In this document: in pieces, positions 33,843 through 54,188 of the stretch
Position numbering within the stretch: the stretch's first letter is position 1
Layout: every line of letters starts with the position of its first letter
NCBI GenBank assembly: GCA_021324935.1
Contig: JAJPIE010000037.1
Span: 1 to 64,000, forward strand
DNA length: 64,000 bases
Direction: 5' to 3'
From: Acidobacteriota bacterium
Lineage (GTDB): Bacteria; Acidobacteriota; Terriglobia; Acidiferrales; UBA7541
The notes under the pieces: model-generated
Databases searched by the model: none
Seen by the model: the letters and a program-made list of their open reading frames with translations, nothing else
What the model was told of the DNA's origin: nothing
Position numbers and translations under genes: made by a program

Positions 33843-33877
33843 AGAGCGCTGGTTTGCGGCCAGCGCTCTTGTTTTTG
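33843..33877 (+). terminator. Rho-independent terminator closing the 16-heme/NHL transcript
   Basis: AGAGCGCTGG-tttgcgg-CCAGCGCTCT followed by TGTTTTT. Confidence 0.88.
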
Positions 33878-34202: not shown

Positions 34203-34219
34203 TGTGATTGCTCATCACA
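34203..34219. promoter_or_regulatory. Palindrome TGTGAT-TGCTC-ATCACA, candidate upstream activator site
   Basis: Same arms and spacer length as 30513..30529; extended 40-bp alignment about 28/40 identical. Confidence 0.6.
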
Positions 34220-34350
34220 ACTGAGCCATATCGCGCAAACGAGCCGAGGTGGGGCAATTTTGGCAGCCCTTGCCGAAGGGGACTAGTACCGCAACGGATA
34301 GAAAATTAAACACTTACGGCAAGTCTTAGGAAACGCCGATTTTGTGCCGG

Positions 34351-34368
34351 TTCGGCATAACAGATGCA
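34351..34368 (+). promoter_or_regulatory. Candidate sigma-54 (-24/-12) promoter TTCGGCATAACAGATGCA
   Basis: GG-N10-GC spacing; 15/18 identical to 30664..30681. Confidence 0.6.
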
Positions 34369-34466
34369 CTTTGGGACAACGCAGGCCGGCCCGCTCCAGG
34401 CTCTGGCCATTTACGAAGTGGAAACTTAAGTTCCGTCTCGCAACACACATGGAGGTTTCACAAGTT

Positions 34467-35384: not shown

Positions 35385-35399
35385 AACGTCCAGCGGTTC

Positions 35400-35433
35400 G
35401 GGGGAGAGAAGGTCTTCTCTCCCCCTTTTTTTT
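35400..35433 (+). terminator. Strong intrinsic terminator between tetraheme cytochrome and PPIase genes
   Basis: GGGGGAGAGAAG-gt-CTTCTCTCCCCC followed by TTTTTTTT. Confidence 0.93.
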
Positions 35434-35457
35434 AGAAAGGAACGGAGGCATTCCATC

Positions 35458-36477
35458 ATGAGGTACCTGGTAGTTTTCGCTCTACTACTAGCGGCGGCGA
35501 CCAACGCAAGTTCTCAAGTTTCCTCCCACGCACCGACGGCTCTTGCAACGGCCAATACTCCTTCCAGCTCGGCCTTCAACGTCAGCGACAAACCGGTAGC
35601 CAAAGTGAACGGGGCGATTCTGACCGACCGCGACTTGCTGCGCGAAATGCTGCAGATTTTTCCTTACGCCAGCCAGCACAACGGATTTCCGAAAGAGCAA
35701 GAGGCATCCATCCGGCAGGGCGCCCTGCAGATGATTATCTTCGAGGAACTGGTGTACCAAGAGGCGATGCGGCGCAAGCTGACGGTCTCGCCGCAAGCGT
35801 TGAAGCAGTCCGAGCTCGAGTTCAAGAAGCAATTTCATTCCGCTCAGGAATACCAGCAGTATCTGGTGACCGAGATGGGCGGCTCGGAACAGAACGTTAT
35901 CGGCAAGATCAAGAGGTCGCTGCTGATCGAAAAGGTATTGAAAAGCGATGTGCAGGACAAGTCCGAGGTAACGCCGGCCGAAGTGCGGGCCTACTACGAC
36001 AAGAATCCGGGCAAGTTTCGCGTTGCGGAATCCTATAGCTTTCAATCGATTTCCATTCTGCCGCCGCTGCATCCGACGCCGGACCAGCAGAAAGAAGCGG
36101 CCAAGCGAGCGAACGACTACCTGAAACAGGCGCAAGCGGCCAAGACGTACCAGGATTTCGGATTGTTGGCGGAAAAGATTTCCGAGGACGATTTCCGCGT
36201 GAACATGGGCGATCACCATTCGGTGAGCAAGGAGCAGCTCCCGCCGCAGGTGGGGAAAGCGCTTTCGAGCATGAAGCCCGGCACGATCAGCGGGCTGATC
36301 CCGATCGAATCGGCGTACACCATCGTGCGGTTGAACGCGCACACGCCGGCCGGAAAACAGAGCTTTGAATCCGTCAAGGCTGGCCTGCGGACGCAATTGC
36401 AGCAGGCCAAATACGAAAGCCTTCGCGCGGGACTCGACAAGGCCCTCAGGGCCAAAGCCCAGGTCCAGATCCTGTAG
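35458..36477 (+). CDS. Periplasmic peptidyl-prolyl cis-trans isomerase (SurA/PrsA/parvulin type)
   Basis: SurA_N-like VAKVNGAILTDRDLLREM and parvulin-like region SYSFQSISILPP...PPQVGKALSSMKPGTISGLIPIESAYTIVRL; signal peptide. Confidence 0.85.
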   Translation: MRYLVVFALLLAAATNASSQVSSHAPTALATANTPSSSAFNVSDKPVAKVNGAILTDRDLLREMLQIFPYASQHNGFPKEQEASIRQGALQMIIFEELVYQEAMRRKLTVSPQALKQSELEFKKQFHSAQEYQQYLVTEMGGSEQNVIGKIKRSLLIEKVLKSDVQDKSEVTPAEVRAYYDKNPGKFRVAESYSFQSISILPPLHPTPDQQKEAAKRANDYLKQAQAAKTYQDFGLLAEKISEDDFRVNMGDHHSVSKEQLPPQVGKALSSMKPGTISGLIPIESAYTIVRLNAHTPAGKQSFESVKAGLRTQLQQAKYESLRAGLDKALRAKAQVQIL

Positions 36478-36499
36478 GGGAAGCAGGAAAGAGGTTGGG

Positions 36500-38341
36500 G
36501 TGAAACGAATTCTCCAATGCGGCGGCCTCCTGATGGTTCTGCTGGCGGCGGCAAGCGCGCGCGCGCAGTTGCAGGTCGGAGACACGACCATGCGCATGAA
36601 CGGCACGCTCACCGGCGGCTATTCGGCCGGCTACGGAGATCAGATCCCCTCGAATCACAGCGTGAACTTTGGCGCGGACGCGCAACTCAGCGGCGATTAC
36701 TACAACCCGAATTTTCTAAACTTCGATATCACCCCGTATTACAACCGTTCCACGTCCGATTCGACGTTTCAATCCTTGACCGATGCCTCGGGACTGAACG
36801 CGAATGTGAACCTGTTTACGGGCAGCAGAACCCCGGGTTACGTAAGCTTCAACTACACGCGGAACTCGACCGGAAATTTCGGATTGATCGGGACGCCGAA
36901 TTTCACCACGATCGGCAACGGATACGGTTTTGGCATCGGATGGAGCCTGTTGCTTCCGGACAAGCCGACCCTCTCTTTCAGCTATTCGCAGGGTTCGGGA
37001 GGCGGGAACGTTTATGGGACGAATGAGGAGTCGCATTCCGCCCTGAAAACGTTCAACCTGCGTTCCAGCTATATGCTTGCGGGCTGGAACCTGAACGCCT
37101 ACTATCAGCGCCTCAGCAACGATTCTCAGTTGCCGACGTTTCTTTCCGGAGAGACGAATCTGAGCTACAGCTCGACGACCGGCAATGTCCTGGGAGTGAA
37201 CGGGTCGCATGCCCTTCCGTGGAACGGCAGCGTATCGATGTACTACACTTACTCGACCTATTCGGGCCATTTCAACGATACCTCGCAACCCTACGACAAC
37301 TTCACGGACTTTTCGACCAACACCGAGGCGGCGAATGTGGTCTTCCATCCGACGAAGAAGTGGAGCTTGTACGGCAGCGAAAATTACACCGACAATTTGA
37401 ATGGCTATTTGTACCAGAATATCGCCAACAACGGCCAGGGCGTTCCGATCAACCAGCAGAATTCGACCTCCAATTCGTTCACCACCAGCGCCGGCGTGGG
37501 GTACAACATTCTCCCCAACCTTTTTGCCCAGGGCCAGATTACCTACTTTCAGCAATCGTACTTCGGGCAAACTTACACGGGAAGCTACATGTCGGGTTTG
37601 CTGGGCTATGGCAAGCGGATCTTCGGCATCTTCAGTCTGTCCGCGAGCGTGATCGACAGCACCAATCAGTTTTCGAACAACAATCTGGGATTCATCGCCA
37701 ACATCGACGGCTTCAAGCGCATCGGAGAGTGGGAAGTTTCCGGGAATCTGAGCTACGCGCAGAATGTGCAGACCCTGCTGGTGACCTACACAACCTCCTA
37801 TTACAATTACGGCGGCAACTTGCATCATCGCCTGGGCAGAGGGAAGCAGGTCACCTTTGCTTACAATGGGTCGCACAGCGGTCTGAACCAGGGCCAGGGA
37901 TCCTACGATTACAGCAACAGTTTTTCGACCACGCTGGCGATGCGCCGCGTCACACTTGGCGCAACGTATATCAAATCCAAGGGACTTTCGATCCTCACCA
38001 GCACGGGTATCCAGCCCATTACGCCGACGCCCGGATTGCCGCCCCTTGGGCAGATTGTTTACAATGGCACCAGCTACGGCGGAAACGTCGGGTTTACCCC
38101 GGTGGCAAGGCTAACCTTAAGCGCATCCTACTCCCACGCCGTGAGCGATACCCTCGCGAACGACATTTCTTCCCAGAATCGCACCGAGATTTTCTACACG
38201 CAGTTGCAATACCGGCTGCGCCGCGTCAACGTTTTCGCGGGCTACACGAAATTTTCCCAGGGGATCAGCGCGGCAGGCACTCCGCCGGGTAACACGTATT
38301 CGTATTTCATCGGAGTGTCGAGATGGCTCAGCTTCTTTTAG
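36500..38341 (+). CDS. Outer-membrane beta-barrel porin-like protein (GTG start)
   Basis: GTG with RBS; signal peptide VKRILQCGGLLMVLLAAASARAQ; long run of alternating amphipathic strands; aromatic end YFIGVSRWLSFF. Confidence 0.82.
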   Translation: MKRILQCGGLLMVLLAAASARAQLQVGDTTMRMNGTLTGGYSAGYGDQIPSNHSVNFGADAQLSGDYYNPNFLNFDITPYYNRSTSDSTFQSLTDASGLNANVNLFTGSRTPGYVSFNYTRNSTGNFGLIGTPNFTTIGNGYGFGIGWSLLLPDKPTLSFSYSQGSGGGNVYGTNEESHSALKTFNLRSSYMLAGWNLNAYYQRLSNDSQLPTFLSGETNLSYSSTTGNVLGVNGSHALPWNGSVSMYYTYSTYSGHFNDTSQPYDNFTDFSTNTEAANVVFHPTKKWSLYGSENYTDNLNGYLYQNIANNGQGVPINQQNSTSNSFTTSAGVGYNILPNLFAQGQITYFQQSYFGQTYTGSYMSGLLGYGKRIFGIFSLSASVIDSTNQFSNNNLGFIANIDGFKRIGEWEVSGNLSYAQNVQTLLVTYTTSYYNYGGNLHHRLGRGKQVTFAYNGSHSGLNQGQGSYDYSNSFSTTLAMRRVTLGATYIKSKGLSILTSTGIQPITPTPGLPPLGQIVYNGTSYGGNVGFTPVARLTLSASYSHAVSDTLANDISSQNRTEIFYTQLQYRLRRVNVFAGYTKFSQGISAAGTPPGNTYSYFIGVSRWLSFF

Positions 38342-39435
38342 AAAAGAGGTCGCTCCTGAGCTTGCAAGGAAAAATGCTGGCGGCGTGCCTGGCCGGGACG
38401 TTGTGCCTGACTCCGGCGGGATTTGCCACGGACAAAAAGAAAAACGAGCCGGTGCGGATCGACATTCCCGAACTGCTTCTGGATGGGGGCCGGAAGCTGC
38501 GCTTCGAGCGGATGTTCAGCACGGAGCAGGAAGTGAAGCCCAAGAAGGGGTTCTGGACGAAGGTCGTGGACGTGGTGATCGGGGCGCCGGACTATCACAC
38601 CATGGTCAGGCCCTACAGCATCACCACCGATTCGAAGGGGCGGATCATCGTCACCGATCCGGGCGCGCATGGCGTGCACATCTTCGACTTCAACAAGGAA
38701 AAATACAAATTTTTGTCGCGCCAGGACACCGATCACAACCCGTTGGTCGAGCCGCAGTGCGTGGCCGTGGACGCCGAAGACCGCATCTACGTGACCGATT
38801 CGGACGCCGGGAAGATTTTCGTCTTCAATCCGAGCGGGAAGCTGGAGCGCGTGATCGGCGCGCTGAAATACGGCGAGGGGTTTTTCAAGCGGCCGACGGG
38901 CATCGCCATCGATTCGGCGGCGCAACGGATTTACGTGAGCGACACTCTGCGCGACCAGATTTTCGAGATGGACATGCAGGGAAGCGTGCTGCGGAAGATC
39001 GGCAAGCGCGGAACGGGCGACGGGGAATTCAACTATCCCACCGAATTGCGGTTGCATGGCGATTCGCTGGCGGTGGTGGAAGCGATGAATTTCCGCGTGC
39101 AGGTGCTGGACAAGAACGGCGAGTACCAATACTCAATCGGGAAGATCGGCGACCATGTGGGGTCGATGTTCCGGCCAAAGGGTGTGGGCTTCGATTCCGA
39201 GGGGCACCTTTATGTGGTCGACGGGATGTGGAGTGTCGTGCAGGTGTTCGATCGGGAAGGACAATTGCTTTATTACTTCGGGAAGCTCGGCACGGCGCCG
39301 GGCGATTTCCAGTTGCCCACGGGCTTGCGCATCGACGACCAGGACCGGATTTATGTGGTGGATTCGTTCAACAAGCGCGTGCAGGTGTATCACTATTTCG
39401 GCGCGGCGAGCGCCACGGGCGGGGTGAAGCCGTGA
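38323..39435 (+). CDS. NHL-repeat beta-propeller protein
   Basis: PYSITTDSKGRIIVTDPGAHGVHIFD and PTGIAIDSAAQRIYVSDTLRDQIFEMD repeats; paralogous to 32468..33745; overlaps end of porin gene. Confidence 0.9.
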   Translation: MAQLLLEKRSLLSLQGKMLAACLAGTLCLTPAGFATDKKKNEPVRIDIPELLLDGGRKLRFERMFSTEQEVKPKKGFWTKVVDVVIGAPDYHTMVRPYSITTDSKGRIIVTDPGAHGVHIFDFNKEKYKFLSRQDTDHNPLVEPQCVAVDAEDRIYVTDSDAGKIFVFNPSGKLERVIGALKYGEGFFKRPTGIAIDSAAQRIYVSDTLRDQIFEMDMQGSVLRKIGKRGTGDGEFNYPTELRLHGDSLAVVEAMNFRVQVLDKNGEYQYSIGKIGDHVGSMFRPKGVGFDSEGHLYVVDGMWSVVQVFDREGQLLYYFGKLGTAPGDFQLPTGLRIDDQDRIYVVDSFNKRVQVYHYFGAASATGGVKP

Positions 39436-41378
39436 AGCAGAAACTTCTCATCGCCGCGCTGGTGTTGCTGGTCACGATGGCCTGCCGATTGGCATTTGCG
39501 CAGACCACGCCTCCGCCACCGACGGGGGACGCGCTGGGCATGCACAACATGTCGGCGGGGAGCGGTTCGTCGGTGACCGCGCCGGGAAGCCTCGGCTGCA
39601 CGTTTTGCCACGCGCCGCACAGCGGATTGGGCGGCGTGACACCGTTGTGGAACCAGCAGTTGTCTCAGCAGACTTACACGCCGTATACGAGCACGACGTA
39701 CAAGCAGAAGGGAAATACGCAGCCGACGCTGGGCGTGACCAGCAGCCTGTGCTTGAGTTGCCACGACGGCACGGTGGCCGTGGGACAGACCGCAGTGTTC
39801 GGAAAAATTCCCGTGAGCGGCGCCTTGAACAACATCGACGTTTTGACCACCAACCTGAGCGGATCCCACCCCTTCAGCCTGGTGTTGCCGATCAAGGATT
39901 CGCCGGACCTGGCCGCATCGCTGGCGGCGCAGGGCGTGACCGCCGATCCGACGGGAGCGGTCAAGCTGGTAAACGGAAATATTGAGTGCACGAGCTGCCA
40001 CAATCCGCACGTGCAAGGCATCGATACCGTGGCGCAGAACTTCCTGGTGCGCGACAGTTCTAACGGGCAGATGTGCCTGGCGTGCCATGATCCGGCGCGC
40101 ACGCTGACCGGGCAGGTAAATCCGCTGACCGGATGGACCGGGAGCATTCACCAGACGGCGACGAATCAGGTGGCGAACACGGCGAATGTGGGTGTGTACC
40201 CGACCGTTGCGGTGAACGCGTGCACTTCGTGCCACATGGAGCACAACGCCGGGGGGCCTTCGCGGCTGATGCGGCCGGCGACGCCCGCGGCGCCGGGTGT
40301 GGACGCGGCTACGCAGGATTGCATTTCGTGCCACGGCGGAACGAACGCGAACATCTCGCCCCTGCCGCTGAACGTTTATGGTGAGTTTTCGAAGATCTCG
40401 CACTTATTGCCGGCGGGCAGCAATCTGCACGACGCGGCCGAGCCGGCGGTTTTGAACAACAATCGCCATGCGACGTGCGTGGACTGCCACGATCCGCACT
40501 CGGGAAATCGGCTTACGGTGTTTGCGCAGCCGCCCGCGATCCGGCCGCCGCAGAGCGGCGTGGAAGGCGTCAGCGCCGCGGACGGCAGTACGGTGCTTGC
40601 ACCGGCGGTGAATCAATACGAAAGCTGTTTCCGCTGCCATGGCACCAGCGTTGGCAAACAGGTGCTGATCAAGTACGGCTACTTGCCGACCCGGCTGGTG
40701 TTTTCGGGCGATCCTCTCAATCTGATCCCGCAGTTCAGCCCAAGTTCCACGTCGAGTCACCCGGTGGTGCATCCCCGGAGCAGCCCATTGCCGCAACCCA
40801 GCTTGCTGACGAACATGCTCAATCAGAACGGCACGGCTTCGAGCCGCCTGGTGGGCTCGCAGATTTTCTGCACCGATTGCCACGCCAGCGACGACAATCG
40901 CGAATTTGGCGGGGCCGGCCCGAACGGACCACACGGCTCGATCTATCCACATATCCTGGAGCGCAACTATCAGTTTTCACAGGCGGGCGTGCCGGGCGGG
41001 CCGGTCACGAACACGTTCCCGACGCCAGACCTGAGCCCGCTGGGACCTTACGCCATGTGCGCGAAGTGCCACGACCTGAACAACGTTATTTCCAACGCGA
41101 GTTGGGCGCAGCACGGGCGGCACATTTCCAACGACGGATTCTCCTGCTCGGTGTGCCACACGGCGCACGGTATGGGATCGGTGAACCCCAGCGTAACCGG
41201 CGAACGGTTGATTAATTTCGATGTGAACGTAGTCGGCCAGAATAACGGCGCGCCCATTTCGTATAACCATGCCACAAACACTTGCACGTTGACCTGCCAC
41301 AATGCCGCGCACAACCCGGATGGCAGCGTCTCCGTGAATGGAACGGTCTTGCCCCAGGTGATGGGAATCAAGCACTGA
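39432..41378 (+). CDS. Multiheme c-type cytochrome, 11 CxxCH plus one CX3CH (GTG start)
   Basis: GTGA overlap with NHL gene; signal peptide VKQKLLIAALVLLVTMACRLAFA; 11 CxxCH counted plus CTLTCH. Confidence 0.92.
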   Translation: MKQKLLIAALVLLVTMACRLAFAQTTPPPPTGDALGMHNMSAGSGSSVTAPGSLGCTFCHAPHSGLGGVTPLWNQQLSQQTYTPYTSTTYKQKGNTQPTLGVTSSLCLSCHDGTVAVGQTAVFGKIPVSGALNNIDVLTTNLSGSHPFSLVLPIKDSPDLAASLAAQGVTADPTGAVKLVNGNIECTSCHNPHVQGIDTVAQNFLVRDSSNGQMCLACHDPARTLTGQVNPLTGWTGSIHQTATNQVANTANVGVYPTVAVNACTSCHMEHNAGGPSRLMRPATPAAPGVDAATQDCISCHGGTNANISPLPLNVYGEFSKISHLLPAGSNLHDAAEPAVLNNNRHATCVDCHDPHSGNRLTVFAQPPAIRPPQSGVEGVSAADGSTVLAPAVNQYESCFRCHGTSVGKQVLIKYGYLPTRLVFSGDPLNLIPQFSPSSTSSHPVVHPRSSPLPQPSLLTNMLNQNGTASSRLVGSQIFCTDCHASDDNREFGGAGPNGPHGSIYPHILERNYQFSQAGVPGGPVTNTFPTPDLSPLGPYAMCAKCHDLNNVISNASWAQHGRHISNDGFSCSVCHTAHGMGSVNPSVTGERLINFDVNVVGQNNGAPISYNHATNTCTLTCHNAAHNPDGSVSVNGTVLPQVMGIKH

Positions 41379-41430
41379 GCCCCGGGCAGCCCGCGCGGAC
41401 GAGGTTCTCCGGGCAATCCCGAAATTGTTT

Positions 41431-42933
41431 ATGAACACTGCAGATTCCGCTCGTGAAACTCGCGGTTCGTCCACCGACAGCCTATTGGGATTTGCCGGGG
41501 TGTTTTTGTTGCTTGGCCTTGCCGCGGGATTGGAGTGCGTGAAACTCGCTTCGCTCCGCGAACCGGGGATTTGGGGACATCTTCGGGCGGGCGCGTGGAT
41601 TCTGCAAAACAAAGCGTGGCCGCACACGGGAATATTTTCCCAGGCGCAAAACTTGAGCTGGCAGGACTTTTCGTGGGGCTACGATGCCCTCGCGGCGGTA
41701 TTGTATCGCTTGGCCGGTCTGCGAGCAGTGCCCCTGCTTTTACTGGTGTCGCGATTCGCGCTTGCGCTGATCTCATTTTTGCTGGCGGGGGGGTGGCGAA
41801 ATCTTTGGCCCGCGGTGATCTTGTCGGCGACCGCGCAATACGTGCTTTTCTCGATGGGACCAAGCTCCGCGATTGTTTCGGTGGTTTTTGGGGGAATCGA
41901 GCTGCTGGTTTTGTTCGGCGCACGCGAGTCAGGCTCCCTGCGCATGCTGCGGTGGCTGCCGGCGCTGTTCGTGTGCTGGGCAAATCTCGATGGCGGGTTT
42001 GTTTACGGAATCGCGCTGTACGGCATTTTTGTCGCGGCATCACTCCTGGAGCACTGGCAGATCAGGAGCAAATTGCATTGGCTGGATCAACCAGCAGGGC
42101 AAGCACCCCTGAAATCCTGGCTACTGTATGGCGGAGCGTGCGTCCTGGCCAGCTTGCTGAATCCTTACACGATTCACGCCTATGGCTCCTTTCTGACGAA
42201 CGAATTCAGCCCGGTGAACCAGCACCTGCCCTTCTACACCGCCATGAGTTTTCGCCAGCCACAGGATTACGTGCTGATGCTGCTAGGGATGGTTGCTTAT
42301 CTTGGCCTGGGGCTGCGCCGCTCGCGGAATGCGTTTTCGATTGGCGTGCTCGTGGGCAGCATGGCGCTGGCGTTTCACGCGCAACGCGAGGCATGGGTGC
42401 TCGCGCTGGCGTCGGCAGCGGTGATTGGCCACTGCATCCTTCGAAGTGCGGAGGCAGGCGCCGCTTCCGGTTTGCGCGATTGGAACGCGCCGCGGCTCGG
42501 AGTGGCGGCCGCGGCCCTTTCCGTTGCGTTGGTCCTTTTCTTTGCGCATGTGCCGAAACGGCAAGACGTATTGCTTGCCAAAGTAGCCGAGCACTTTCCG
42601 GTGCGTGCCGCGGATTTCCTTCGCACGCATCCGCAGCCGGCTCCTTTCTTCAATGTCTATCAATGGGGTGCATTTCTCACCTGGTACCTGCCGGAATATC
42701 CCGTGGCGATTGACGGACGCCGCGGCCTTTATCCCGAAGAGACCGAACTCGGCTACTTCAAAGCGATGAACGCGGATATTCCTTATCGCCAGTTTCCGCC
42801 CATGAATCGGGCGCGCACCTTTCTGATGGACAAGGCGGGAATTATGGGAGAGGCGCTGCGCGGCGTGAAGGGTTTTCAGGCGATTTATGAAGACAATCTC
42901 TCGATTGTGTATTCCCACGAGACCCAGGAGTAA
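41431..42933 (+). CDS. Multi-pass membrane protein, glycosyltransferase-like
   Basis: ORF; many TM helices; similar layout to 51229..52689 (GIWGHLRAGAWILQNKAWPHTGIFS). Confidence 0.75.
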   Translation: MNTADSARETRGSSTDSLLGFAGVFLLLGLAAGLECVKLASLREPGIWGHLRAGAWILQNKAWPHTGIFSQAQNLSWQDFSWGYDALAAVLYRLAGLRAVPLLLLVSRFALALISFLLAGGWRNLWPAVILSATAQYVLFSMGPSSAIVSVVFGGIELLVLFGARESGSLRMLRWLPALFVCWANLDGGFVYGIALYGIFVAASLLEHWQIRSKLHWLDQPAGQAPLKSWLLYGGACVLASLLNPYTIHAYGSFLTNEFSPVNQHLPFYTAMSFRQPQDYVLMLLGMVAYLGLGLRRSRNAFSIGVLVGSMALAFHAQREAWVLALASAAVIGHCILRSAEAGAASGLRDWNAPRLGVAAAALSVALVLFFAHVPKRQDVLLAKVAEHFPVRAADFLRTHPQPAPFFNVYQWGAFLTWYLPEYPVAIDGRRGLYPEETELGYFKAMNADIPYRQFPPMNRARTFLMDKAGIMGEALRGVKGFQAIYEDNLSIVYSHETQE

Positions 42934-42945
42934 AGCGGGGAACTG

Positions 42946-44517
42946 ATGGCCAGCGCGGCACAGATCGAATCGCTACCGGCGGTGAAGGCGCGTGAGTTGT
43001 GGAAGTTGGGGGACGCGGCGGTTGTGCTGGTCTATTCGAGCGTGGTTCTCTGGACGCTGCAATACCACGAAAAATGGGCGGACGAAGCGCAGGCGTGGCT
43101 GATTGCGCGCGATCTGGATTTGAAGACCATCTGGTTTCACGAGTTGCGTTACGAAGGTACGCCGGGGCTTTGGCACACGATATTGTGGATCGCGCAGCAC
43201 GTTTTTCATGCGAAGTACGGAGCGCTCGGTTACATCGGCGCGGTGTTCGCGATCGCGGGCGCGGCAGCGCTGCTCTTCCTCGCGCCGTTTCCGCGTTACA
43301 TCCGCTGGCCGCTCGCTTTCACCTACGTGATGGTCTACCAATACGCCCTGATCTCCCGGCCATATACACTTTTTCCTTTGCTGGCATTCCTGGCGGCTTA
43401 CTTTTACAAGGACGTGGCCAAGCCCGAACGTATAAGCCTTGTATTGGCGATTCTCGCCTTGCTTACCCTGCACGGCACGATCCTCGCGGGTTGTCTTGGA
43501 TTGACCTATTTAATTCAGGGATTGCAAATGTGGCCGGTCCTGGACGTTACGGTCAAGCGTCGCTACTTCGTGTGTATTGCGGGGCTCACGCTGCTATTTC
43601 TGTTCATTGTGCTGATCATGAAGCCAACACCGGATGTCGCGGAGTTTGCCATGAAGGAAAAGGTGAATCAGCTTGGCCATGTTTTTCAGCAAGCACAGCC
43701 AACTACACTTCGCAAAACGGGTGCGGTGATTTCGGGCGCATTCCTTGACTACACCGTACCGTCCGCGGCATTTATCTTGCTCGCCTTTGCGTGGTGCGCC
43801 TATCGGCGGAAACCGCTGGAGTTTGCGCTACCGGTTTCGTCCCTGGTTGTTTTCTACGCGCTTATCCATGGCTACCCGCATCACCATGGAACCGTGTTTG
43901 TCGCGGCGATTACCGCGATCTGGATTGCCTGGCCGACAAACGACCCGCCTTTGGCACGCATAGTCGGGGAAAATTGGCCCCATATCGGTATAACTGCTCT
44001 GCTGCTGGTTCTTTGCACGGTCAATCTCTTTGACGCTGCCGTGGTCATTCATCGAGAGTATCTATACCCCTATAGTGGTTCTGAAGATGCAGCCAAGTTC
44101 CTGAAAAATGTGGGCGCGGACCGACAGCCGCTCTTCGGGCTGCTCTACGGGGTCGCGGCGATTCAAGCCTATTTTGACCACAACATCCTGACAAATCTGC
44201 ACACCGCATATTTTCATCACGGATTGCCTGATGAAGAGGCGGGCACAACCTTGAATCTGTCCGAGTTGCACCGGGTCGACCCGGAATACATTGTTGTCTA
44301 TTCAGACGAACCAGAATTGATGATGCAGTTGGGAGCACCCTACCTCTTCAACGAGGGCTACAGAATCGTCCACTTTTCGGATGGATACTACCTGTATAAG
44401 CGAGCAGTCTACCAGCGCGATACATACTTCATTTTTCAGAAACCTCGCGCTGGCCAGGGTTCGGACACGGGTTTTATGCCCTTACCAGAGCCGGCAGGAA
44501 ACGAGGAAGCACCATAG
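42946..44517 (+). CDS. Multi-pass membrane protein, PMT/GT39-like
   Basis: First periplasmic loop YHEKWADEAQAWLIARDL (DE motif), many TM helices. Confidence 0.7.
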   Translation: MASAAQIESLPAVKARELWKLGDAAVVLVYSSVVLWTLQYHEKWADEAQAWLIARDLDLKTIWFHELRYEGTPGLWHTILWIAQHVFHAKYGALGYIGAVFAIAGAAALLFLAPFPRYIRWPLAFTYVMVYQYALISRPYTLFPLLAFLAAYFYKDVAKPERISLVLAILALLTLHGTILAGCLGLTYLIQGLQMWPVLDVTVKRRYFVCIAGLTLLFLFIVLIMKPTPDVAEFAMKEKVNQLGHVFQQAQPTTLRKTGAVISGAFLDYTVPSAAFILLAFAWCAYRRKPLEFALPVSSLVVFYALIHGYPHHHGTVFVAAITAIWIAWPTNDPPLARIVGENWPHIGITALLLVLCTVNLFDAAVVIHREYLYPYSGSEDAAKFLKNVGADRQPLFGLLYGVAAIQAYFDHNILTNLHTAYFHHGLPDEEAGTTLNLSELHRVDPEYIVVYSDEPELMMQLGAPYLFNEGYRIVHFSDGYYLYKRAVYQRDTYFIFQKPRAGQGSDTGFMPLPEPAGNEEAP

Positions 44518-44566: not shown

Positions 44567-44779
44567 ATGAGCAGGCAAGAAAAGCCTCCGGAAACAACCA
44601 TTCCGAAAGATTCGTTTATGGATCTCATGTGGAGGCACCGGCTGTGGTGGATGCTGCCACTCGGGGTTTTGCTGCTGTTGCTAGGGGCCATTTACGCGCT
44701 GGAGCACCTTTCAAAGACGGACTCGGAGATGTATCCGACGTCGTCAAGCACCCGCGTGGAATTGCCATATTCGGGTTGA
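44567..44779 (+). CDS. Small single-TM protein, DUF5989-like
   Basis: FMDLMWRHRLWWMLPLGVLLLLLGAIYALEHLS; 3 bp before SGNH gene. Confidence 0.65.
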   Translation: MSRQEKPPETTIPKDSFMDLMWRHRLWWMLPLGVLLLLLGAIYALEHLSKTDSEMYPTSSSTRVELPYSG

Positions 44780-44782
44780 TAC

Positions 44783-46006
44783 ATGTCGCCGGCCAAAAGA
44801 GAATTAATCCTTGCCGCGCTTGTCTTTTTCGCGCTTCCGGTCCTGGCGGAGCTTGTCCTGCGCGCGGCACGTGTTCCCTTTGATGCGCAACTCTACGGCC
44901 CGGATTGCGCACTGGGTTGGCGGCTGCGGCCCGGCGCCAGTGGCCGGGTGTCCACCGAAACACCGCAGTGGGTTCGCATCAACAGCCGCGGATTTCGCGA
45001 TCGCGAGCGAACTTTCGAAAAGCCGGCGGACACATTTCGCATCGCCGTGCTGGGGAATTCCTGGACGGAAGCGCTACAAGTCCCCCAAGAGAAAACGTAC
45101 ACGGCAGTCCTGGAACAGCAACTCAACGATAGAAAGTGCTTTGCGGGAAAGCGCGTGGAAGTGCTGAATTTCGGGGTGGCCGGCTATTCCACCGCGCAGG
45201 AGCTCCTCCTGCTGCGGCAGAAAGTCTGGAACTATCATCCCGACCTGATTCTGCTGGCCATCTACCCCGCGCGAGACATAGCGAACAACATTCGTGAACT
45301 GAACAACGCGGTGACGCCGGAACGCTCGCCATACTTCGTTTTTCGCGGGGAACAGCTTGCTTTGGACGATTCTTTCCGTTCGCTCCCGGCCCTCCAACCG
45401 TGGCAAATCCGGCTGCAATCGACGGAGTTCTGGTTCGACGACCATTTCCGAACGCTGGAAGCCATCAACACGGTCCAACGATACGGGAAAATCCGTGTGG
45501 CCATGGCCGCGGCGAGAGAACGCGCCGAGCAATCCGGCATGGACAATCTGGAATACGCCATTTATGCGCCGCCATCCACGCCGGCGATGCAACAGGCCTG
45601 GAAGGTTACGGAAGCCTTACTGCTGGCGATGAACAGGGAGGTGCGCGAGCGTGGCGCGGAGTTTCGGTTGGTCACCCTGGCCACACGGCCACAAGTCATT
45701 CCCGATCCGGCGAAAAAAGAGGACTTGTTGCGAAAACTCGGCGTCCAGGACTTTTCGTATGCGGATGAGCGGATCAACAAGCTGGCGGTAGCAAACGGGA
45801 TCGCGGTCACCCAACTGGCGCCTGCGCTCGCGGCATATGCGGAGGCGCACAACGTTTATCTGAATGGGTTCAATGCCTCGAATTATGGTGCCGGCCATTG
45901 GAATGAGACTGGCCACCGGCTGGCTGCGGAGACCATTGGCGAGGATTTGTGCCGCGCGCCGCAAGATGCGGCCGTCCATATTTCGACGACGCGCGCCAGG
46001 GAGTGA
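44783..46006 (+). CDS. SGNH/GDSL hydrolase-like protein, membrane anchored
   Basis: N-terminal TM; FRIAVLGNSWTEALQVP, VEVLNFGVAGYSTAQELLLL, DLILLAIYPARDI. Confidence 0.82.
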   Translation: MSPAKRELILAALVFFALPVLAELVLRAARVPFDAQLYGPDCALGWRLRPGASGRVSTETPQWVRINSRGFRDRERTFEKPADTFRIAVLGNSWTEALQVPQEKTYTAVLEQQLNDRKCFAGKRVEVLNFGVAGYSTAQELLLLRQKVWNYHPDLILLAIYPARDIANNIRELNNAVTPERSPYFVFRGEQLALDDSFRSLPALQPWQIRLQSTEFWFDDHFRTLEAINTVQRYGKIRVAMAAARERAEQSGMDNLEYAIYAPPSTPAMQQAWKVTEALLLAMNREVRERGAEFRLVTLATRPQVIPDPAKKEDLLRKLGVQDFSYADERINKLAVANGIAVTQLAPALAAYAEAHNVYLNGFNASNYGAGHWNETGHRLAAETIGEDLCRAPQDAAVHISTTRARE

Positions 46007-46013
46007 GCCGCGA

Positions 46014-47723
46014 GTGACCACCCACTTCGAATTTTGCAGACAACTTCGCCAGCGCTTAAGCGCACACGAGGACCGGGTACTCTTGCGCGTGGTGGTTTCG
46101 CCGGACTTTGAGCAACCTCGAGAGTTCACGGGCAAAGCGATTCTCGAACGCGCCGAGCAGTTAGCGGCACCGTTCAGTTTGCCTGGCCCACGATGCGTTG
46201 TTTTGCTGCTGCTGCCGCATTCGCCGGAACTTTTCCTGCTGCAACTTGGACTGGTGCTTGGCGGTCACATCCCTGCGATTCTGGCGTGGCCCACCAGCCG
46301 TATCGATGCGGAAAAGTATCAGCGCAACTTGGTGCATCAACTAAGCCATCTGCCGGCGGACCGGCTAGTCACGCTGCCGCGGTTGGCAGAAAATCTTCAG
46401 GGCAGCCTTCCGTATCCTGTGTGCGGCGTTCCGGTCGAAAATGCCGGGGCATTTGAAAAGGTGTTTCCCGCGGCGCCGGTGACACAGCGCCTGGAAAGCG
46501 GCAAATTTGAGCCCCGAAAATTCCGCACCGATCCGGATACGCTGTTCCTGCAATTTTCCGGTGGCACCACCGGGGCGCAGAAGGCCATCGTCGTCACGGC
46601 GGAGATGCTGCGCGCGCAATTCCGCCAGTTGACCGAGGCGCTGGATTTTTCCTCCGTGGATTCCGTGGCATCTTGGTTGCCGCTTTATCACGATATGGGT
46701 TTGATTGCATGCTACTGGATGCCGTTGTGGCATGGCGCGGCGTCGTTGCAGATGGCGGCGAACGATTGGGTGCTGAATCCGGAGCTTCTTCTCAAATATA
46801 CTGCCCGCTATCGCGTGAGCTTCTGCTGGCTGCCGAATTTTGCGTTTTCCTACATGAGCCAACGGAGAGAACAGATGTCCCGGCACGATCTTTCGAGCGT
46901 GCGCGCGTGGATCAACTGTTCCGAACCGGTGCGGCTTAAATCCGTCATGGAGTTCGCGAGTGCGTTCGCGGATTGCGGGGTGCGCAAAGAAAGCCTGCAG
47001 GCGTCGTACGCCATGGCAGAAACGGTGTTTGCAATTACGCAGTCGCAATTGGGAAAGGAACTTGCCGTCGTGCCGCGGCAGCGGGTGCAGCAAGGGAAGC
47101 ACAGCTATTCCGAACTGGCGTTTGATCTGATCGACGACGTATACGTTTCCTCCGGAAAGCCCTTGAGCGGCACGGAAATTAAAACGGTGGCGGCGGATGG
47201 TTCACGCTGCCCGGACAACATGCCGGGGGAGATTTGGGTCCGCACGCCTTCGCTGTTTTCCGGCTACTGGAGCGCGGAAGGGTTTCAAACGCATTCCTTG
47301 AATGACGGATGGCACGCGACTGGCGATTTTGGATTTGTGAGGGACGGAGAACTCTATGTGATTGGGCGCTTCAAGGACATTGTGATCGTCGGCGGCAACA
47401 ATATTTTTCCGGAAGACGTGGAAGCGGTGGTGAATTCGATCGAGCGCGTTTATCCGGGGCGCGTGGTGGCCTTCGGGGTGGAGGACGAGGAGTTCGGCAC
47501 GCAGAGCCTGGCCGTGGTTGCAGAGATGAAGGGCGAGTTCAACGAAGAAGCCGCTTCCCAGCTCGAAGCGGCAATCCGCAAGCTGGTGATGACCGCGATT
47601 GGCACGGCCGCGCGCTACGTGGCCGTGGTTCCACAGCGCTGGATCGTGAAGAGCACCGCGGGGAAGATTTCCCGGCGCGAAACGCGCGAGCGATTTGTAC
47701 GCGAGCGCCTGAACAGCGTCTGA
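46014..47723 (+). CDS. AMP-dependent acyl ligase, fatty-acyl-AMP ligase-like (GTG start)
   Basis: FLQFSGGTTGAQKAIVVT, SWLPLYHDMGLIACYWMPLWHGA, YVIGRFKDIVIVGGNNIFPEDVE. Confidence 0.88.
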   Translation: MTTHFEFCRQLRQRLSAHEDRVLLRVVVSPDFEQPREFTGKAILERAEQLAAPFSLPGPRCVVLLLLPHSPELFLLQLGLVLGGHIPAILAWPTSRIDAEKYQRNLVHQLSHLPADRLVTLPRLAENLQGSLPYPVCGVPVENAGAFEKVFPAAPVTQRLESGKFEPRKFRTDPDTLFLQFSGGTTGAQKAIVVTAEMLRAQFRQLTEALDFSSVDSVASWLPLYHDMGLIACYWMPLWHGAASLQMAANDWVLNPELLLKYTARYRVSFCWLPNFAFSYMSQRREQMSRHDLSSVRAWINCSEPVRLKSVMEFASAFADCGVRKESLQASYAMAETVFAITQSQLGKELAVVPRQRVQQGKHSYSELAFDLIDDVYVSSGKPLSGTEIKTVAADGSRCPDNMPGEIWVRTPSLFSGYWSAEGFQTHSLNDGWHATGDFGFVRDGELYVIGRFKDIVIVGGNNIFPEDVEAVVNSIERVYPGRVVAFGVEDEEFGTQSLAVVAEMKGEFNEEAASQLEAAIRKLVMTAIGTAARYVAVVPQRWIVKSTAGKISRRETRERFVRERLNSV

Positions 47724-47732
47724 TCGGAGGAA

Positions 47733-47993
47733 ATGCCAGTGATTCCCGATAGCCAAACGATTCGCACCGCCGCCACCGAGGCGGCCTCACAACTGATCGG
47801 CAGACCGCTGCGGCCGGGGCAGCGCCTGGTCACCTCCGGGCTGATCGATTCGCTCTCGGTGTTGAAGTTGATCGGCCTGCTGGAGAAAAAGCTGCGCGTC
47901 GTCATTCCTCCCGAAACACTGCAACCGGAGGATTTCGACGACGTCGACTTGATTGTCGAGACCGTGGAGCGCGTGGCGAAACCAGCGGCGTGA
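47733..47993 (+). CDS. Acyl carrier protein
   Basis: VTSGLIDSLSVLKLIGLLEKKL phosphopantetheine site (DSL), 86 aa. Confidence 0.88.
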   Translation: MPVIPDSQTIRTAATEAASQLIGRPLRPGQRLVTSGLIDSLSVLKLIGLLEKKLRVVIPPETLQPEDFDDVDLIVETVERVAKPAA

Positions 47994-48026
47994 ACGCGAG
48001 GACGCCGGAGATTCGGATCAAGGCAC

Positions 48027-49460
48027 ATGGCGTTTAACTCAGTTCTCTATCTTGGATTGCTCGGGGTCGTGGCGGCGGTGTTCTGGCTGCTGCCTGCGCG
48101 TTGGCGCCGAGGTTTTGCTTTGCTCAGCAGCGTGGCGTTTTATGCATCGTGGGGCCTGGCGTTTGTTTGGCTGCCGCTGCTGGTGGCTGGCATCGTGCAC
48201 ATCGCTGGAGAAAGGATCACGGCGGAATCCACGGGCAAGAAGCGTTGGTCGCGATTGGGCATGGCCGGCGTGCTGGCGCTGCTGATTGTATTCAAGTATC
48301 GGGGTTTTATTGCCGACAATCTCCACGCGCTTGGTTTTTCTTTCGGCGCCCACCCTCATCTGATGTTTGCCGCGATTGCGTTTCCGATAGGCATTTCGTT
48401 CTACAGCTTCGAAGCGATCGCGTACCTGGTGGATTTGCGCCAGGGCCGCGTGACGATGCAGCGCTTTGCCGACCTGTGCCTGTTCTTTTACTTCTGGCCA
48501 AACATTCTTTCCGGGCCGATTGTTCGCGCGCGCGAGCTGATGCCGCAGCTTTCCTTTCAGAAGCGATTCGAGCCACGATTCGTGTTCGAAGGGATGGACC
48601 GGATCGTTTGGGGGCTCGTGCAGAAGAATGTGATCGCGAACATGCTTGGGATTTGGGTTGACCGCGGGTTTGACGCAAATGGACCAATCACTCTGCCTAC
48701 ACGGGATGCCTGGCTGCTGGCGATTGGATTTGCGTTGCAAATTTATTTCGATTTTTCCGCGTATACAAATATGGCCATCGGCGCCGCGCGGCTGCTGGGC
48801 GTGACACTGCCCGAAAATTTCCGCCAGCCGTATCACGCCGCCACGCCGCCGGAATTCTGGGCGCGCTGGCACATGACGCTCTCGCGTTGGGTCCGCGACT
48901 ATTTGTTCTTCCCGATCAACGCGAAGCATGCGGGCGCGCCACTGCCTTTGTATCTGAGCCTGCTGGGTGTGATGGCTTTGGTGGGGCTTTGGCACGGCGC
49001 GGGCTGGGGATTCCTGGTGTGGGGCGCGCTGCATGGCGCGTACCTGGTGCTGTATCGCGCGTATGAAAGCTGGAAGGATGCGGAGGGCGCGGCTCACGAG
49101 CAGAGAATCGCAGGATGGTTCTGGAGAATTCTGACGTTGACTGCCGCGACTGCGGCCTGGGTGCCGTTCCGTGCGACATCGCTCGGCAAAGCGTGGACGA
49201 TCTGGGGCTCGATGTTTTGGCGGTGGAGCGGCAGAGGCAGCCTCGGAGCGGGATTTTGCGCTTTCGTTGCCGTGGTTGCGGGGTTTTGTGCGATTGAGCC
49301 GTGGTTGGTGCGGAAACTGAGCGACATCGAAGAAAATGCGGGAACGCAGGGGCCTTCGGTGTTTCGAGTGCTGGTGCGGCCCATCGCGTATTCGATTGGG
49401 TTGCTGCTGTTTCTGCTTTGTGACGAGCACAACACGCAATTTATTTACTCGCAGTTCTGA
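48027..49460 (+). CDS. MBOAT family O-acyltransferase (AlgI/DltB-like)
   Basis: FPIGISFYSFEAIAYLVDLRQG, FWARWHMTLSRWVRDYLFFPI, LVGLWHGAGWGFLVWGALHGAYL. Confidence 0.94.
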   Translation: MAFNSVLYLGLLGVVAAVFWLLPARWRRGFALLSSVAFYASWGLAFVWLPLLVAGIVHIAGERITAESTGKKRWSRLGMAGVLALLIVFKYRGFIADNLHALGFSFGAHPHLMFAAIAFPIGISFYSFEAIAYLVDLRQGRVTMQRFADLCLFFYFWPNILSGPIVRARELMPQLSFQKRFEPRFVFEGMDRIVWGLVQKNVIANMLGIWVDRGFDANGPITLPTRDAWLLAIGFALQIYFDFSAYTNMAIGAARLLGVTLPENFRQPYHAATPPEFWARWHMTLSRWVRDYLFFPINAKHAGAPLPLYLSLLGVMALVGLWHGAGWGFLVWGALHGAYLVLYRAYESWKDAEGAAHEQRIAGWFWRILTLTAATAAWVPFRATSLGKAWTIWGSMFWRWSGRGSLGAGFCAFVAVVAGFCAIEPWLVRKLSDIEENAGTQGPSVFRVLVRPIAYSIGLLLFLLCDEHNTQFIYSQF

Positions 49461-49517: not shown

Positions 49518-51200
49518 TCATTGGATGCGGGTGCCGTCAGGGAGAAAAACCGGGAAGTTGTCGTTTGGGCGGGCGAGGACGAGTTGTTGCGCGGCGGCCA
49601 TGCGGTCGTAATCGAATAAAAATAATCCGAATTTATAGTGCAGGGCGAGATCATTGGGAGCCTGCGCGATGGCCCACTGATACTCGGCGACGACGTCCTG
49701 GAAGCTTTCCGCCGGCGCAGAGGCGCGCAGCAGGAGGCTTTGCAACATTTCAACGTGATTCAACTGCGTGGTGAAGGGCGGGCGTTGCACGCGATCCACC
49801 ATCTCGGCGGCGACGCGGGCGCGGTCCTGCGCAGTGAAAGCCAACAGGCGTTCGCATTCGCCCTCGGTGAGGGGCTCGGTGGTTGAAGCCGATTTCTGAA
49901 TTGCGGGTGGAAGAGTCTTCACCACCTGCTCGAAGACTTCGCGGGCAAACAGATAGTTGCCGAGGGGAGTGAAGTGCACATGGTCGTAAAGCATCTCGCC
50001 GCCGACGGTTGCGTCGCGACTCTGGCTCGCCAGCATTGCCTCCGTATCGAGCAGCGCGGCTGAGCCTGCGGAGTTTTCTGCCGTTGAGCGGATGATGTCG
50101 TTGATGCGGGAATCGGCGCGAAAACGCAGCGTGTCCAGGTCGCGTGCGCGGGAATAATATTCTTTCGCGGCCTGAAAATTCCCGATCCGCGTGTAGCAGC
50201 GCGCGATGCGAAATTCCAGCTCGGCAAATTGATCGTCGATCTGGCGGGCGGAAGCGTAATACTTCAGAGCGTCGTCGTACGATTGGGTTACTTCTGCGGC
50301 CGCACCTTGCTGGACCAGCGTGTTCCAGGAATCGAGCGCCCGCGGAGCGAGGTCCGCGCGATGCAGCGAACCGAAAGGGGCCGAATCGCGCAGATTCGTG
50401 GCCACTGTGGAAAGCAACAAGTGTGCACCGGTTTCGCGGCCCAATTGCACGAGATCTCGCAGGTTGCCGGCAAAATTCCGGTAGGCCGGCTGCATGCGGG
50501 GGGAATCGGCACGCACCTGTTTGTCCAAAAACATTTCCATTCCGCGCCATTCCTGCTTTGGCTGGCCGCCTTCCTCCAGCAACTGACCCAGGCGCGAAGA
50601 TCGCACGAAAATGCTGGCGCGAATCACAGGCAGGCTCATCGAGCCGGTGGTCAGTACCGTCCCCGGGCCGTACGGCCCGACAACCTCGTTGCTGCCGATG
50701 TACGCGACGTAAAAATCCGGCTGATATTTTGCAAGGCCGCGTGCCATCGCCAGGCTGACGTGCGAATTGATCGCCACCATGCCTGTATTGACCACTTCGA
50801 AGTTCACTCCCGGAAAACGCGTGCGCAGCATGACTTCGAGATACCGGCTGAATCCATAGGCAAAATCCGGATCGCCCATGGCCGCGGATTCGCCCAATAC
50901 GAAAATCCGGTACGTGTTCTTCGGCTTCACCGGATCGATGGAAAAAAACTGCGGCGTCTTGATCATGCCGGGCGGGAAATAAGGCGCGGCGAAGAACAGG
51001 TTGTAACAGTCAGCGGGCCGGCCGTGAATGGTGCAGGGTTCCATGAGGCTGGTGGAATAGCCGACGTTGAAAGCGCGCAGCGCGATTTCGGTCAGGACCA
51101 GCAGTAAAACGGGAGCTGCAACGGCAAAAGCAATGCGGGGCATCCAAAACGTCCAGCCGCGCCGGGTGCTTTCTGTTTTCTCTGTGCTGACCTGGGCCAT
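49518..51200 (-). CDS. SGNH/GDSL hydrolase-like protein with TPR-like region
   Basis: YRIFVLGESAAMGDPDFAYGFSRYLE, FEVVNTGMVAINSHVSLAMA, YIGSNEVVGPYG; YDHVHFTPLGNYLFA. Confidence 0.85.
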   Translation of the reverse strand: MAQVSTEKTESTRRGWTFWMPRIAFAVAAPVLLLVLTEIALRAFNVGYSTSLMEPCTIHGRPADCYNLFFAAPYFPPGMIKTPQFFSIDPVKPKNTYRIFVLGESAAMGDPDFAYGFSRYLEVMLRTRFPGVNFEVVNTGMVAINSHVSLAMARGLAKYQPDFYVAYIGSNEVVGPYGPGTVLTTGSMSLPVIRASIFVRSSRLGQLLEEGGQPKQEWRGMEMFLDKQVRADSPRMQPAYRNFAGNLRDLVQLGRETGAHLLLSTVATNLRDSAPFGSLHRADLAPRALDSWNTLVQQGAAAEVTQSYDDALKYYASARQIDDQFAELEFRIARCYTRIGNFQAAKEYYSRARDLDTLRFRADSRINDIIRSTAENSAGSAALLDTEAMLASQSRDATVGGEMLYDHVHFTPLGNYLFAREVFEQVVKTLPPAIQKSASTTEPLTEGECERLLAFTAQDRARVAAEMVDRVQRPPFTTQLNHVEMLQSLLLRASAPAESFQDVVAEYQWAIAQAPNDLALHYKFGLFLFDYDRMAAAQQLVLARPNDNFPVFLPDGTRIQ

Positions 51201-51228
51201 GGCGGTTGTTCTCAAACTCCCTTGTGTT

Positions 51229-52689
51229 TCATCGACGCGTGAACACCGTCGCAATGTCGTCGTGATAGACCATCTGAAAGCGATTATCGACGGTGAGAAG
51301 TTTTGCCAGAGGAAGCGTGGAATCGAGAATCACCAGGTGAGACTCATCCAGGTATGGATCGGTGGTATAGGAGGGGAACGCCGACTGGGATTCATAGAAA
51401 ACCTTGTCCATGGCGTCGCCATAAAGATCGTTGCGGCCGTCCACGGCGACGGGCAATTCTGGCAGATACCACATCAGGAAGCCGCCCCAATTCAGATTGT
51501 TATAAAGCGGCCCGGAATAGCCCTGGCGGCGGAGAAAATTCACTGCGTTTACCGGGTAGTCCGCGCTGATAGCGCGATCGATTCCGCGCGCATCGAAATC
51601 TACCAGCGGTGCCGCCACCACCAAGGCCGCGGCCACCGCGGCGCCGGCCACCGCCAGTTCCATCCAGGATTCCAGGCGTGAGCGTTTTTCCTGCGCAACG
51701 GGAAAATCCGCGAGGCAAGCAATTGCGGAAAAACAGAGAAACCAACCGTCACGCGTGGTGCGAAAGGCAACGGCGCTGGCCACCACCAGCAGGAGCAGCT
51801 TGAAGGGCTCGATTTTTCGCTGCCATCCCACGGCGTAAAAGCCGGCGGCGCCCAGAAACAGTTCCGTGAAGTTGCTCAAGCCACGAAAGCTCAGCGGCTG
51901 CAACTCCATGATGATGTTGTAGGCGAACTTGGATTTCGTATAGACGAGCACGGCTACATAGGGGCGGTAGAGATTCGGGCCTGCCAAAGTAGCCAGAAAG
52001 CAGAGACCCAGAATGACGAGCAAGCGCTCGGCCGGGAAGGAGGCGGGCTTCAGAAAGCTCGGGGTCCAGCCGGCCGCGTCAAGCCACTGCTGCAGCACGT
52101 TCACGCCCACGAACAGGCAGACGGCGAATAAGCCGTAAATGAACTGAATGTGCAGATTCGCCCACAGTAGCAGCAACGGCGGCAGCCAGTAGAGCAGTTC
52201 GATCCGTTCGCGGCGCTGCGCCTCCAGCAATATAGCCAGTGTGAGGCAGTAAAGCATTTGAGAAAAAAACACTGGTCGCGGCATGCCATTGAAGAGATAG
52301 GCGGAACACCCCAGCGCTGCAAGAATCACCGCCAGCCAGAAATTCCCAGAAATGCGGCGCGCCATCCAATATGCGGAATAAGCCACGCCGATAGTTAGCA
52401 AAGTGCCGAAAACGCCCATCCCGGCAAGTCCAAACCATGCATAGAAGCGCGATAGAAGCACTTCATAGCCCCAACTGTAAGCGACCCAAGGATGGTCCGC
52501 GGCGGTTCGCGAGAGAATGCCGGTGTGCGGCACGGCGGAGTGCTCGACGATCCAATCGCCGACCTTGAGGTGCCACCACAAATCATAATCGATGACGCAA
52601 TATTTCAGTCGCAGCGCATTGACGCCGATGAAGGCAAGAAAGCCTGAAAGGACAGAAAGTTGCACCCAGCGATTGCGAAGAAAACTCAT
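51229..52689 (-). CDS. Multi-pass membrane protein, glycosyltransferase-like
   Basis: [31 protein letters not shown], many TM helices; paralog of 41431..42933. Confidence 0.75.
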
Positions 52690-54188
52690 GTGCTTGGAGC
52701 GGCGGCGGGGACTCGACTCGCCGGAGCGGCAAATTGCTCGCCGGCCCGGCCAGATTCGTGATATTCGCCATCTTCGTTGACGGCCCAAATGTCGTACTTT
52801 TCCTCGCCGGCCAGAATATTTCGCGCCGCCAGCATGGCGGTCATCATGGCGTGGTCCTGATTGTTATATTTGTGCATGCCATTGCGACCCACGAGATGAA
52901 GATTCGGGGAATGCGCGGCCAAAGCTTTACGGATGACGTCGACGTTACGACGATAGTCGTCGTCGTACACCGGATACGCCTTGGCCTGGCGAATCACGCA
53001 GCCGTCTACCACGTCGGCTGCCGCGCCAAGCCCCACTTGTTCGATTTCCTTTTTGGCCATGGCGATCAATTCCTCATCCGGTGTGGCCCACAGGCCATCG
53101 CTTTCGAAGCAGAAATACTCCAAGCCGTAGCAGCAGTAGTTGGGATCGGGAACCATTTCTGGCGACCACGATTTGTAGTTCTGGACGCGGCCGACCTTCA
53201 CATTCGGGTCGTGAATGTAAATCCAATTGTCATTGAAGCGATTTTGTTCGCGAAGGATCAAACCGATTGTGATGAAGTCGCGGTAGCGCAGGGACCTTGC
53301 GGAATGCTGTGCATTCTCGGGCAGGCGTGGCTCGATTTGCGAAACCAATTGGCGCATGGGCATGGAGGAAACCAGATGCTCGGCGCGATATTCTTCCAAT
53401 GTTCCGTCCGAGTTTCTGGCCGTGACCGTCCAGCGATTTGCAACCGCATCCCAGCAGCAACCGGTCACGCTGCGCCCGAGCAGGACTTCGCTGCCCATTT
53501 TGCGAACCTTATCCGCGCACGTTTCCCACATCATGCCCGGCCCCAGCCGCGGATAGCGGAAGGTGTCGATCAGCGTCTTGACGACCTGCTTGCGATCTTT
53601 CGTCATCCGCTTGGGCAGAATCGCATTCTTGATCGCCGTGGCCAGCGAAAGTCCCTTGATGCGTTGCGCGGCCCAATCCGCCGAAATTTCCTTGCAGCTC
53701 ATGCCCCAGACTTTTTCCGTGTAGGTTTTGAAGAAAATGCGGAACAGCCGTTCGCCAAACTGGTTCACCACCCAGTCTTCAAACGATCTCGGATGCTGCG
53801 TGGGATGCAATTTCGCCTGGAGAAAAGAAAAAACGCAGAACATGGATTCCAGGAAACCCAGCTTGGAAAGCGCTTCGAAGGGCTTCAGGGGATATGCGTA
53901 AAACTCGCCGCGGTAATAAATTTTCGATGAGCGCGGGCGCTCCAGCATGTCCGCGCCGAGGATCTCCGTCCAAAGATCCTCGACCTCGCGCGATTTGGAG
54001 AAGAAGCGGTGGCCGCCGATGTCGAAGCGATAACCGTGATAGGCGACGGTTCTCGAAATGCCGCCCACATATCGGGGGTCGCTCTCCAGCACCAGCACGC
54101 GCTGCCCGTGCTTGCTCAGTTCGTAGGCGGCGGTAAGGCCGGCGGGTCCTGCGCCGACGATGATGGCCTTGTATTCGGGATTGCTCAT
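52686..54188 (-). CDS. FAD-dependent amine oxidase / UDP-galactopyranose mutase-like oxidoreductase
   Basis: [41 protein letters not shown]...[12 protein letters not shown]. Confidence 0.9.

Follow-up and report, generated by a model that had tools for sequence, protein, structure and literature searches.

A putative ligase- and carrier-fed MBOAT–SGNH acylation system with a fused acyl-shuttle motif in an Acidobacteriota genome

Organization of the locus

The window, a stretch of 64,000 nucleotides, contains five intact open reading frames on the plus strand at 44567-49460, separated by gaps of 3, 7, 9, and 33 bp (Table 1). A first-pass annotation, made from the sequence without database searches, had described five consecutive and nearly gapless genes, and both the gene positions and the gaps were reproduced exactly. 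The host is a soil-type Acidobacteriota with a 4.5 Mb genome that is 91% complete, in which P0005 was the sole MBOAT found.

Table 1. Features of the acylation locus and its surroundings, in order of position in the window
Feature	Positions	Strand	Evidence
Conserved surroundings: multihaem cytochromes, NHL-repeat proteins, putative beta-barrel	30996..41378	+	Paired_CXXCH and NHL matches
Polytopic membrane protein, 502 aa, conserved locus	41425..42933	+	34% identical to L241 protein beside cytochrome; no significant Pfam match
Polytopic membrane protein, 523 aa, directly upstream of the run (49 bp gap)	42946..44517	+	No Pfam match
P0001, one-TM protein, 70 aa, divergent DUF5989 relative	44567..44779	+	Pfam DUF5989 24.5 bits
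P0002, membrane-anchored SGNH protein, candidate periplasmic acyltransferase	44783..46006	+	Lipase_GDSL_2/ALGX-like; SGNH fold
FAAL-like acyl-AMP ligase, GTG start	46014..47723	+	AMP-binding 140 bits
P0004, acyl carrier protein, phosphopantetheine site Ser40 in DSL	47733..47993	+	PP-binding 19.9 bits
P0005, MBOAT acyltransferase, His323/His336, two extra C-terminal TM helices	48027..49460	+	Pfam MBOAT 63 bits
Acyl-shuttle hexapeptide FIYSQF (Tyr474), C-terminus of P0005	49440..49457	+	Invariant Tyr474/Phe477
SGNH-TPR protein, second candidate transferase	49518..51254	-	TPR clear, GDSL weak
Polytopic membrane protein, 519 aa, conserved locus	51229..52788	-	52% identical in L038, 51% in L241; no Pfam match

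The MBOAT carries a fused shuttle motif

In the Dlt system, the MBOAT hands the acyl group to a tyrosine in the C-terminal FXYXXF of the microprotein DltX, whereas the MBOATs of PatA-type systems carry this hexapeptide at their own C-terminus, on two extra TM helices that are absent from DltB (PMC12148441). P0005 has the C-terminus of the PatA/AlgI type, with FXYXXF on extra TM helices; it ends in FIYSQF, a feature absent from the first-pass annotation. In its AlphaFold model (pLDDT 86), the extra helices span residues 408-437 and 442-465 and the motif follows them, the shuttle tail being modeled with low confidence (residues 473-477 at pLDDT < 50). Alignment with 28 relatives showed that His323 is invariant and His336 nearly so, in agreement with the earlier observation that the MBOAT histidines (WHG...HG) are kept, and that Tyr474 and Phe477 are invariant across the 28 aligned MBOATs. 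A fold search returned DltB entries as the nearest solved folds, and the DltB equivalog model TIGR04091 scored 157.8 bits, below its cut-off of 375.

The fetched loci contain 6,075 distinct open reading frames of 100 aa or more; of these, 56 terminate in F.Y..F, comprising 44 MBOATs, 11 frames that end in DUF5989 sequence, and one unrelated frame. The motif was present on 42 of the 52 MBOAT-like proteins examined, and every relative in the window's own MBOAT clade (clade A) carries it on the MBOAT C-terminus, as in the window. At two loci with the same ligase type (L039 and L087), the MBOAT is short and lacks the motif, which is found on a neighboring protein of 50 or 55 aa (RFIYTGF in L039, MFLYGRF in L087) that matched no Pfam family. 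Thus, fused and split versions of the shuttle both exist, and the window holds the fused one. The split versions lie at L039:5953-7296 and L087:9146-10543 (Chloroflexi and Magnetococcales MAG), each with a FAAL-like ligase alongside.

The ligase and the carrier protein

The ligase had been proposed to be fatty-acyl rather than D-alanyl specific, and its best matches point the same way, being FAAL-like and not DltA-like. Its best NCBIfam matches were PRK07768 and the fatty acyl-AMP ligase PRK09192, both below their cut-offs (246 bits against 600 for PRK09192); no curated FAAL model passed, and no DltA model occurred among the best 25 NCBIfam matches. The best PDB matches were solved FAALs (3KXW and 3PBK). 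The FAAL-specific helix and the conserved Pro226 of EcFAAL have been described as FAAL features that block the CoA pocket (PMC8460268); the helix (EcFAAL R251-P259) has an ungapped match in the segment AANDWVLNP of the ligase, and Pro226 is likewise matched without gaps (SWLP). Because the curated models score below cut-off, we infer the FAAL-like status from these resemblances. By best matches, the ligase would fall in the same subfamily as FadD28/FadD32, EcFAAL (3PBK), and the Legionella enzyme (3KXW), with the helix length and the proline present, but its partner here is an MBOAT–SGNH pair and not a PKS or NRPS. MBOATs are unmentioned in a 2025 review of FAALs (PMC11837247), and homologous ligases at large mostly lack an MBOAT linkage (13 of 80 loci linked).

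The carrier protein scored just below the PP-binding cut-off (19.9 against 20.8 bits) and well short of the DltC carrier equivalog NF003464 (23.1 against 68 bits), and it is 46-51% identical to the carriers of six orthologous cassettes. The serine of the DSL motif, previously noted as kept, is Ser40.

The identity of the acid is less constrained. The ligase could load a small or a hydroxy/amino acid instead of a fatty acid, in which case the module would make a Dlt-like small ester; the scores below the FAAL cut-offs leave room for this, as FAAL-like sequence is no proof of chain length, and DltB, the nearest fold to the MBOAT, handles D-alanine. Nevertheless, the best structural relatives of the ligase are fatty-acyl-AMP ligases, and a sister locus (G089) has a ketosynthase and a second carrier protein beside its cassette, so that we regard the small-acid outcome as possible but doubtful and favor a fatty acid as substrate.

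Conservation of the cassette in relatives

The MBOAT clade of the window, supported at 100/100 in the tree, spans several families of the class, and each of its seven members has a ligase, a carrier, and an SGNH gene next to the MBOAT. In the six further cassettes (L031, L032, L099, L150, L229, and L230), ligase, carrier, SGNH, and MBOAT genes are consecutive; the ligases share 53-59% identity with that of the window, and the MBOATs 48-53%. The SGNH-type gene of these relatives lies between the carrier and the MBOAT; the window lacks it there and has P0001 and P0002 upstream instead. The view of the run as a single acylation module is borne out by the retention of ligase, carrier, and MBOAT together, and for these three genes it also passed the test of co-occurrence in relatives by which the first-pass annotation had proposed that it be judged. 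An order-level survey yielded mostly AlgI-like paralogues of 32-39% identity and one true orthologue. A literature search in an open library for MBOAT, SGNH, and acyl carrier protein in combination found nothing.

Polysaccharide genes surround several of the sister cassettes, with a sugar-phosphate transferase and glycosyltransferases at G089, L031, and L099 (the neighbors in L031 and L099 being named by eye from their sequences), and a carbamoyltransferase lies near the cassette in L032. Wherever neighboring genes were read, the six sister cassettes lie in exopolysaccharide loci with their own SGNH proteins, so the acceptor in the window need not be the same and may differ. At L150:9968-13409 (G089), a second carrier protein, a ketosynthase, and a second AMP ligase lie directly 3' of the cassette; the acyl group may be purpose-made there.

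Two SGNH candidates

The P0002 model has an SGNH fold (pLDDT 90), and its fold search returned generic SGNH esterases, with CgnD at the top (Z 22.5); AlgX, PatB, and DltD were not among the matches listed, which excludes nothing. Ser93 and His372 are invariant in 18 aligned relatives. GNS in P0002 replaces the GDS shared by all 24 aligned relatives, a departure from its subfamily, and the partner SGNH proteins of clade A also carry GNS; the change may mark either a transferase or a weakened enzyme. The block III Asn, kept in nearly all aligned relatives, is lost in P0002, and the usual Asp before the catalytic His is missing throughout its close subfamily. Degeneration of P0002 for want of the Asp before His372 was considered and not upheld, since the whole close subfamily lacks this residue; taking the lost Asn and the Asp-less subfamily together, P0002 may still not be an active transferase. 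P0002 as an orthologue of the clade-A SGNH was also rejected, with no phmmer match at E 1e-3 in L031, L032, L099, and G089.

The SGNH partner expected nearby in PatA/AlgI-type systems is represented twice, by P0002 in the operon and by the adjoining SGNH-TPR protein. The SGNH partner is less secure than the earlier proposal assumed: P0002 belongs to a different subfamily from the partner in relatives, and a second SGNH gene is conserved next door. The SGNH-TPR protein is 49% and 54% identical to SGNH-TPR proteins adjoining ligase–carrier–MBOAT sets in L038 and L241. With the 519-aa membrane protein encoded beside it, it corresponds to a gene pair that adjoins such a set in L038 and G619. Strong matches to it came from 1 of 95 genomes in the order and 4 of 299 in the class, and the two weaker ones (G634 and G663) lie away from such sets.

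Synteny with G619 covers 30996-55600 of the window, with identities of 34-62% for the cytochromes, the NHL-repeat proteins, the beta-barrel, and the TPR proteins. The ligase and MBOAT at the G619 locus are 34-37% identical to those of the window and constitute a different set; between L038 and G619, the MBOATs and ligases share 60-63% identity. L038 and G619 thus hold a different (type-B) ligase–carrier–MBOAT set in the same position, with the same SGNH-TPR gene adjoining, while the cytochrome/NHL/beta-barrel cluster, probably a porin–cytochrome conduit, is kept with G619 and partly with L038. The unit is larger than five genes, and on the simplest account its acylation set was exchanged in place. 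Exchange within a syntenic locus argues that the locus needs such a set, and exchange beside the same SGNH-TPR gene makes this protein a second candidate transferase.

Carried further, the SGNH-TPR protein could be the working transferase, with P0001 and P0002 derived from another pathway and inserted into the operon. Its position beside the type-B sets of L038 and G619 fits this, as do the absence of P0001 and P0002 from type-B sets and from clade A and the occurrence of DUF5989 and P0002-like SGNH genes near each other elsewhere. The SGNH-TPR gene is, however, on the opposite strand, while almost no gap separates the genes for P0001, P0002, and the ligase, and the GNS of P0002, which departs from the GDS of its 24 aligned relatives, matches the clade-A partners. 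We consider this reading possible but doubtful, with a lower probability than the mechanism proposed below.

Proposed mechanism and relation to known systems

Taken as a whole, the locus fairly probably encodes a ligase- and carrier-fed MBOAT–SGNH system that acylates an extracytoplasmic acceptor. The FAAL-like ligase would activate a free acid, for which a fatty acid is the likeliest candidate, to acyl-AMP and load it onto the phosphopantetheine of Ser40 of the carrier. At the cytoplasmic face, the carrier would hand the acyl group to the MBOAT, which would pass it, via His323/His336, to its own Tyr474 in the periplasmic FIYSQF. The acyl-Tyr tail would then swing across to an SGNH protein and meet its active serine; P0002 (Ser93), the SGNH-TPR protein, or both would fill this role and esterify a glycan or glycosylated surface structure connected to the neighboring locus of cytochrome, beta-barrel, and membrane-protein genes. 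We count the previously suggested order of chemistry, from ligase to carrier to MBOAT to SGNH, as supported, while the acyl flow itself is what we infer.

Such a system would resemble Dlt in its donor half and PatA at the membrane, but as these systems are defined it belongs to neither. With Dlt (DltABCDX) it has in common an AMP-forming ligase, a dedicated carrier, an MBOAT for which DltB is the nearest solved fold, and an SGNH protein; it differs in the FAAL-like ligase, the shuttle motif on the MBOAT, the other SGNH, and the Gram-negative host. The original label "Dlt-like" accordingly holds for the ligase and carrier of the donor side and fails for the shuttle, which is of the PatA type and fused to the MBOAT. 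With PatA/PatB peptidoglycan O-acetylation and its AlgI, cellulose, and secondary-polymer relatives it shares FXYXXF on two extra MBOAT helices and an SGNH partner. Those fused-shuttle systems are said in a 2025 paper to use acyl-CoA without a carrier protein (PMC12148441), whereas a dedicated ligase and carrier accompany the MBOAT here and throughout the clade. The cassette would break this stated rule. Ordinary AlgI/PatA-type acetylation with acetyl-CoA, the ligase and carrier serving an unrelated product, is improbable, for although most such MBOATs in relatives (about 35% identical) carry the fused motif, all seven clade members and the type-B sets have a ligase and a carrier next to the MBOAT.

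Through a dedicated ligase, longer or unusual acyl groups could reach the cell surface. Furthermore, surface acylation would be tied to a conserved multihaem-cytochrome/beta-barrel locus in Acidobacteriota.

P0001 and the DUF5989 family

The small TM protein had been likened to DltX, an assignment that was not supported: P0001 ends in VELPYSG with no C-terminal FXYXXF, DltX (PF12459) had no match in the genome searched, and none of the six sister cassettes has a P0001-like protein. P0001 is probably not a DltX equivalent, and this was discarded as the main reading. It scored 24.5 bits against Pfam PF19451 (DUF5989; cut-off 27), covering profile positions 7-37 of 49. Its Tyr56 (44732-44734) lies 25 residues from the conserved Pro, the distance seen in most members of DUF5989; in a protein with three tyrosines, this spacing is weak evidence for a shuttle. 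Around Tyr56 the sequence is EMYPTS, with both motif Phe residues lost and 11 residues of tail following.

A split Dlt-like system, in which Tyr56 of P0001 is the working shuttle and the MBOAT tail a relic or second site, would account for the relationship to a family whose members end in the shuttle motif, for the spacing of Tyr56 from the TM proline, and for a P0001 gene that directly precedes the SGNH gene. We judge it improbable: Tyr56 has lost both Phe and is not C-terminal, an intact motif is present on the MBOAT, and the sister cassettes dispense with P0001. In the fused-shuttle reading that we prefer, P0001 would have no acyl-shuttle role; it may keep P0002 positioned at the MBOAT, or it may be a relic.

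The uncharacterized family DUF5989, on which our search of an open library found nothing, occurs in 88 of 297 Acidobacteriota genomes. P0001 shares with it the N-terminal part, the TM helix, and the Tyr spacing but, unlike its members, lacks the terminal motif and has no carbamoyltransferase beside it. Nearly all DUF5989 proteins found here terminate in FIYTLF or a sequence close to it, a DltX-type shuttle motif (L154-L191, L201-L212, and L245, including the host's own genome at G000:C87, L184:7231-7380). Genes for SxtJ-family proteins and carbamoyltransferases accompany them, an SGNH gene often lies close by, and no MBOAT was noticed in the stretches of these carbamoyltransferase loci that were read. 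Speculatively, DUF5989 could be a second widespread family of acyl-shuttle microproteins that moves carbamoyl or acyl groups across the membrane independently of MBOATs, with P0001 a motif-less member captured by a fused-shuttle MBOAT cassette. The shuttle motif makes a membrane-crossing role of the family directly testable.

A Planctomyces plasmid has the same arrangement of DUF5989, SxtJ, and carbamoyltransferase genes. The frame that ends in the motif is longer in L197 and L198 and may represent a fusion with an SxtJ-like protein. At L213, a motif-bearing MBOAT adjoins a DUF5989-like protein that itself has FVYDIF.
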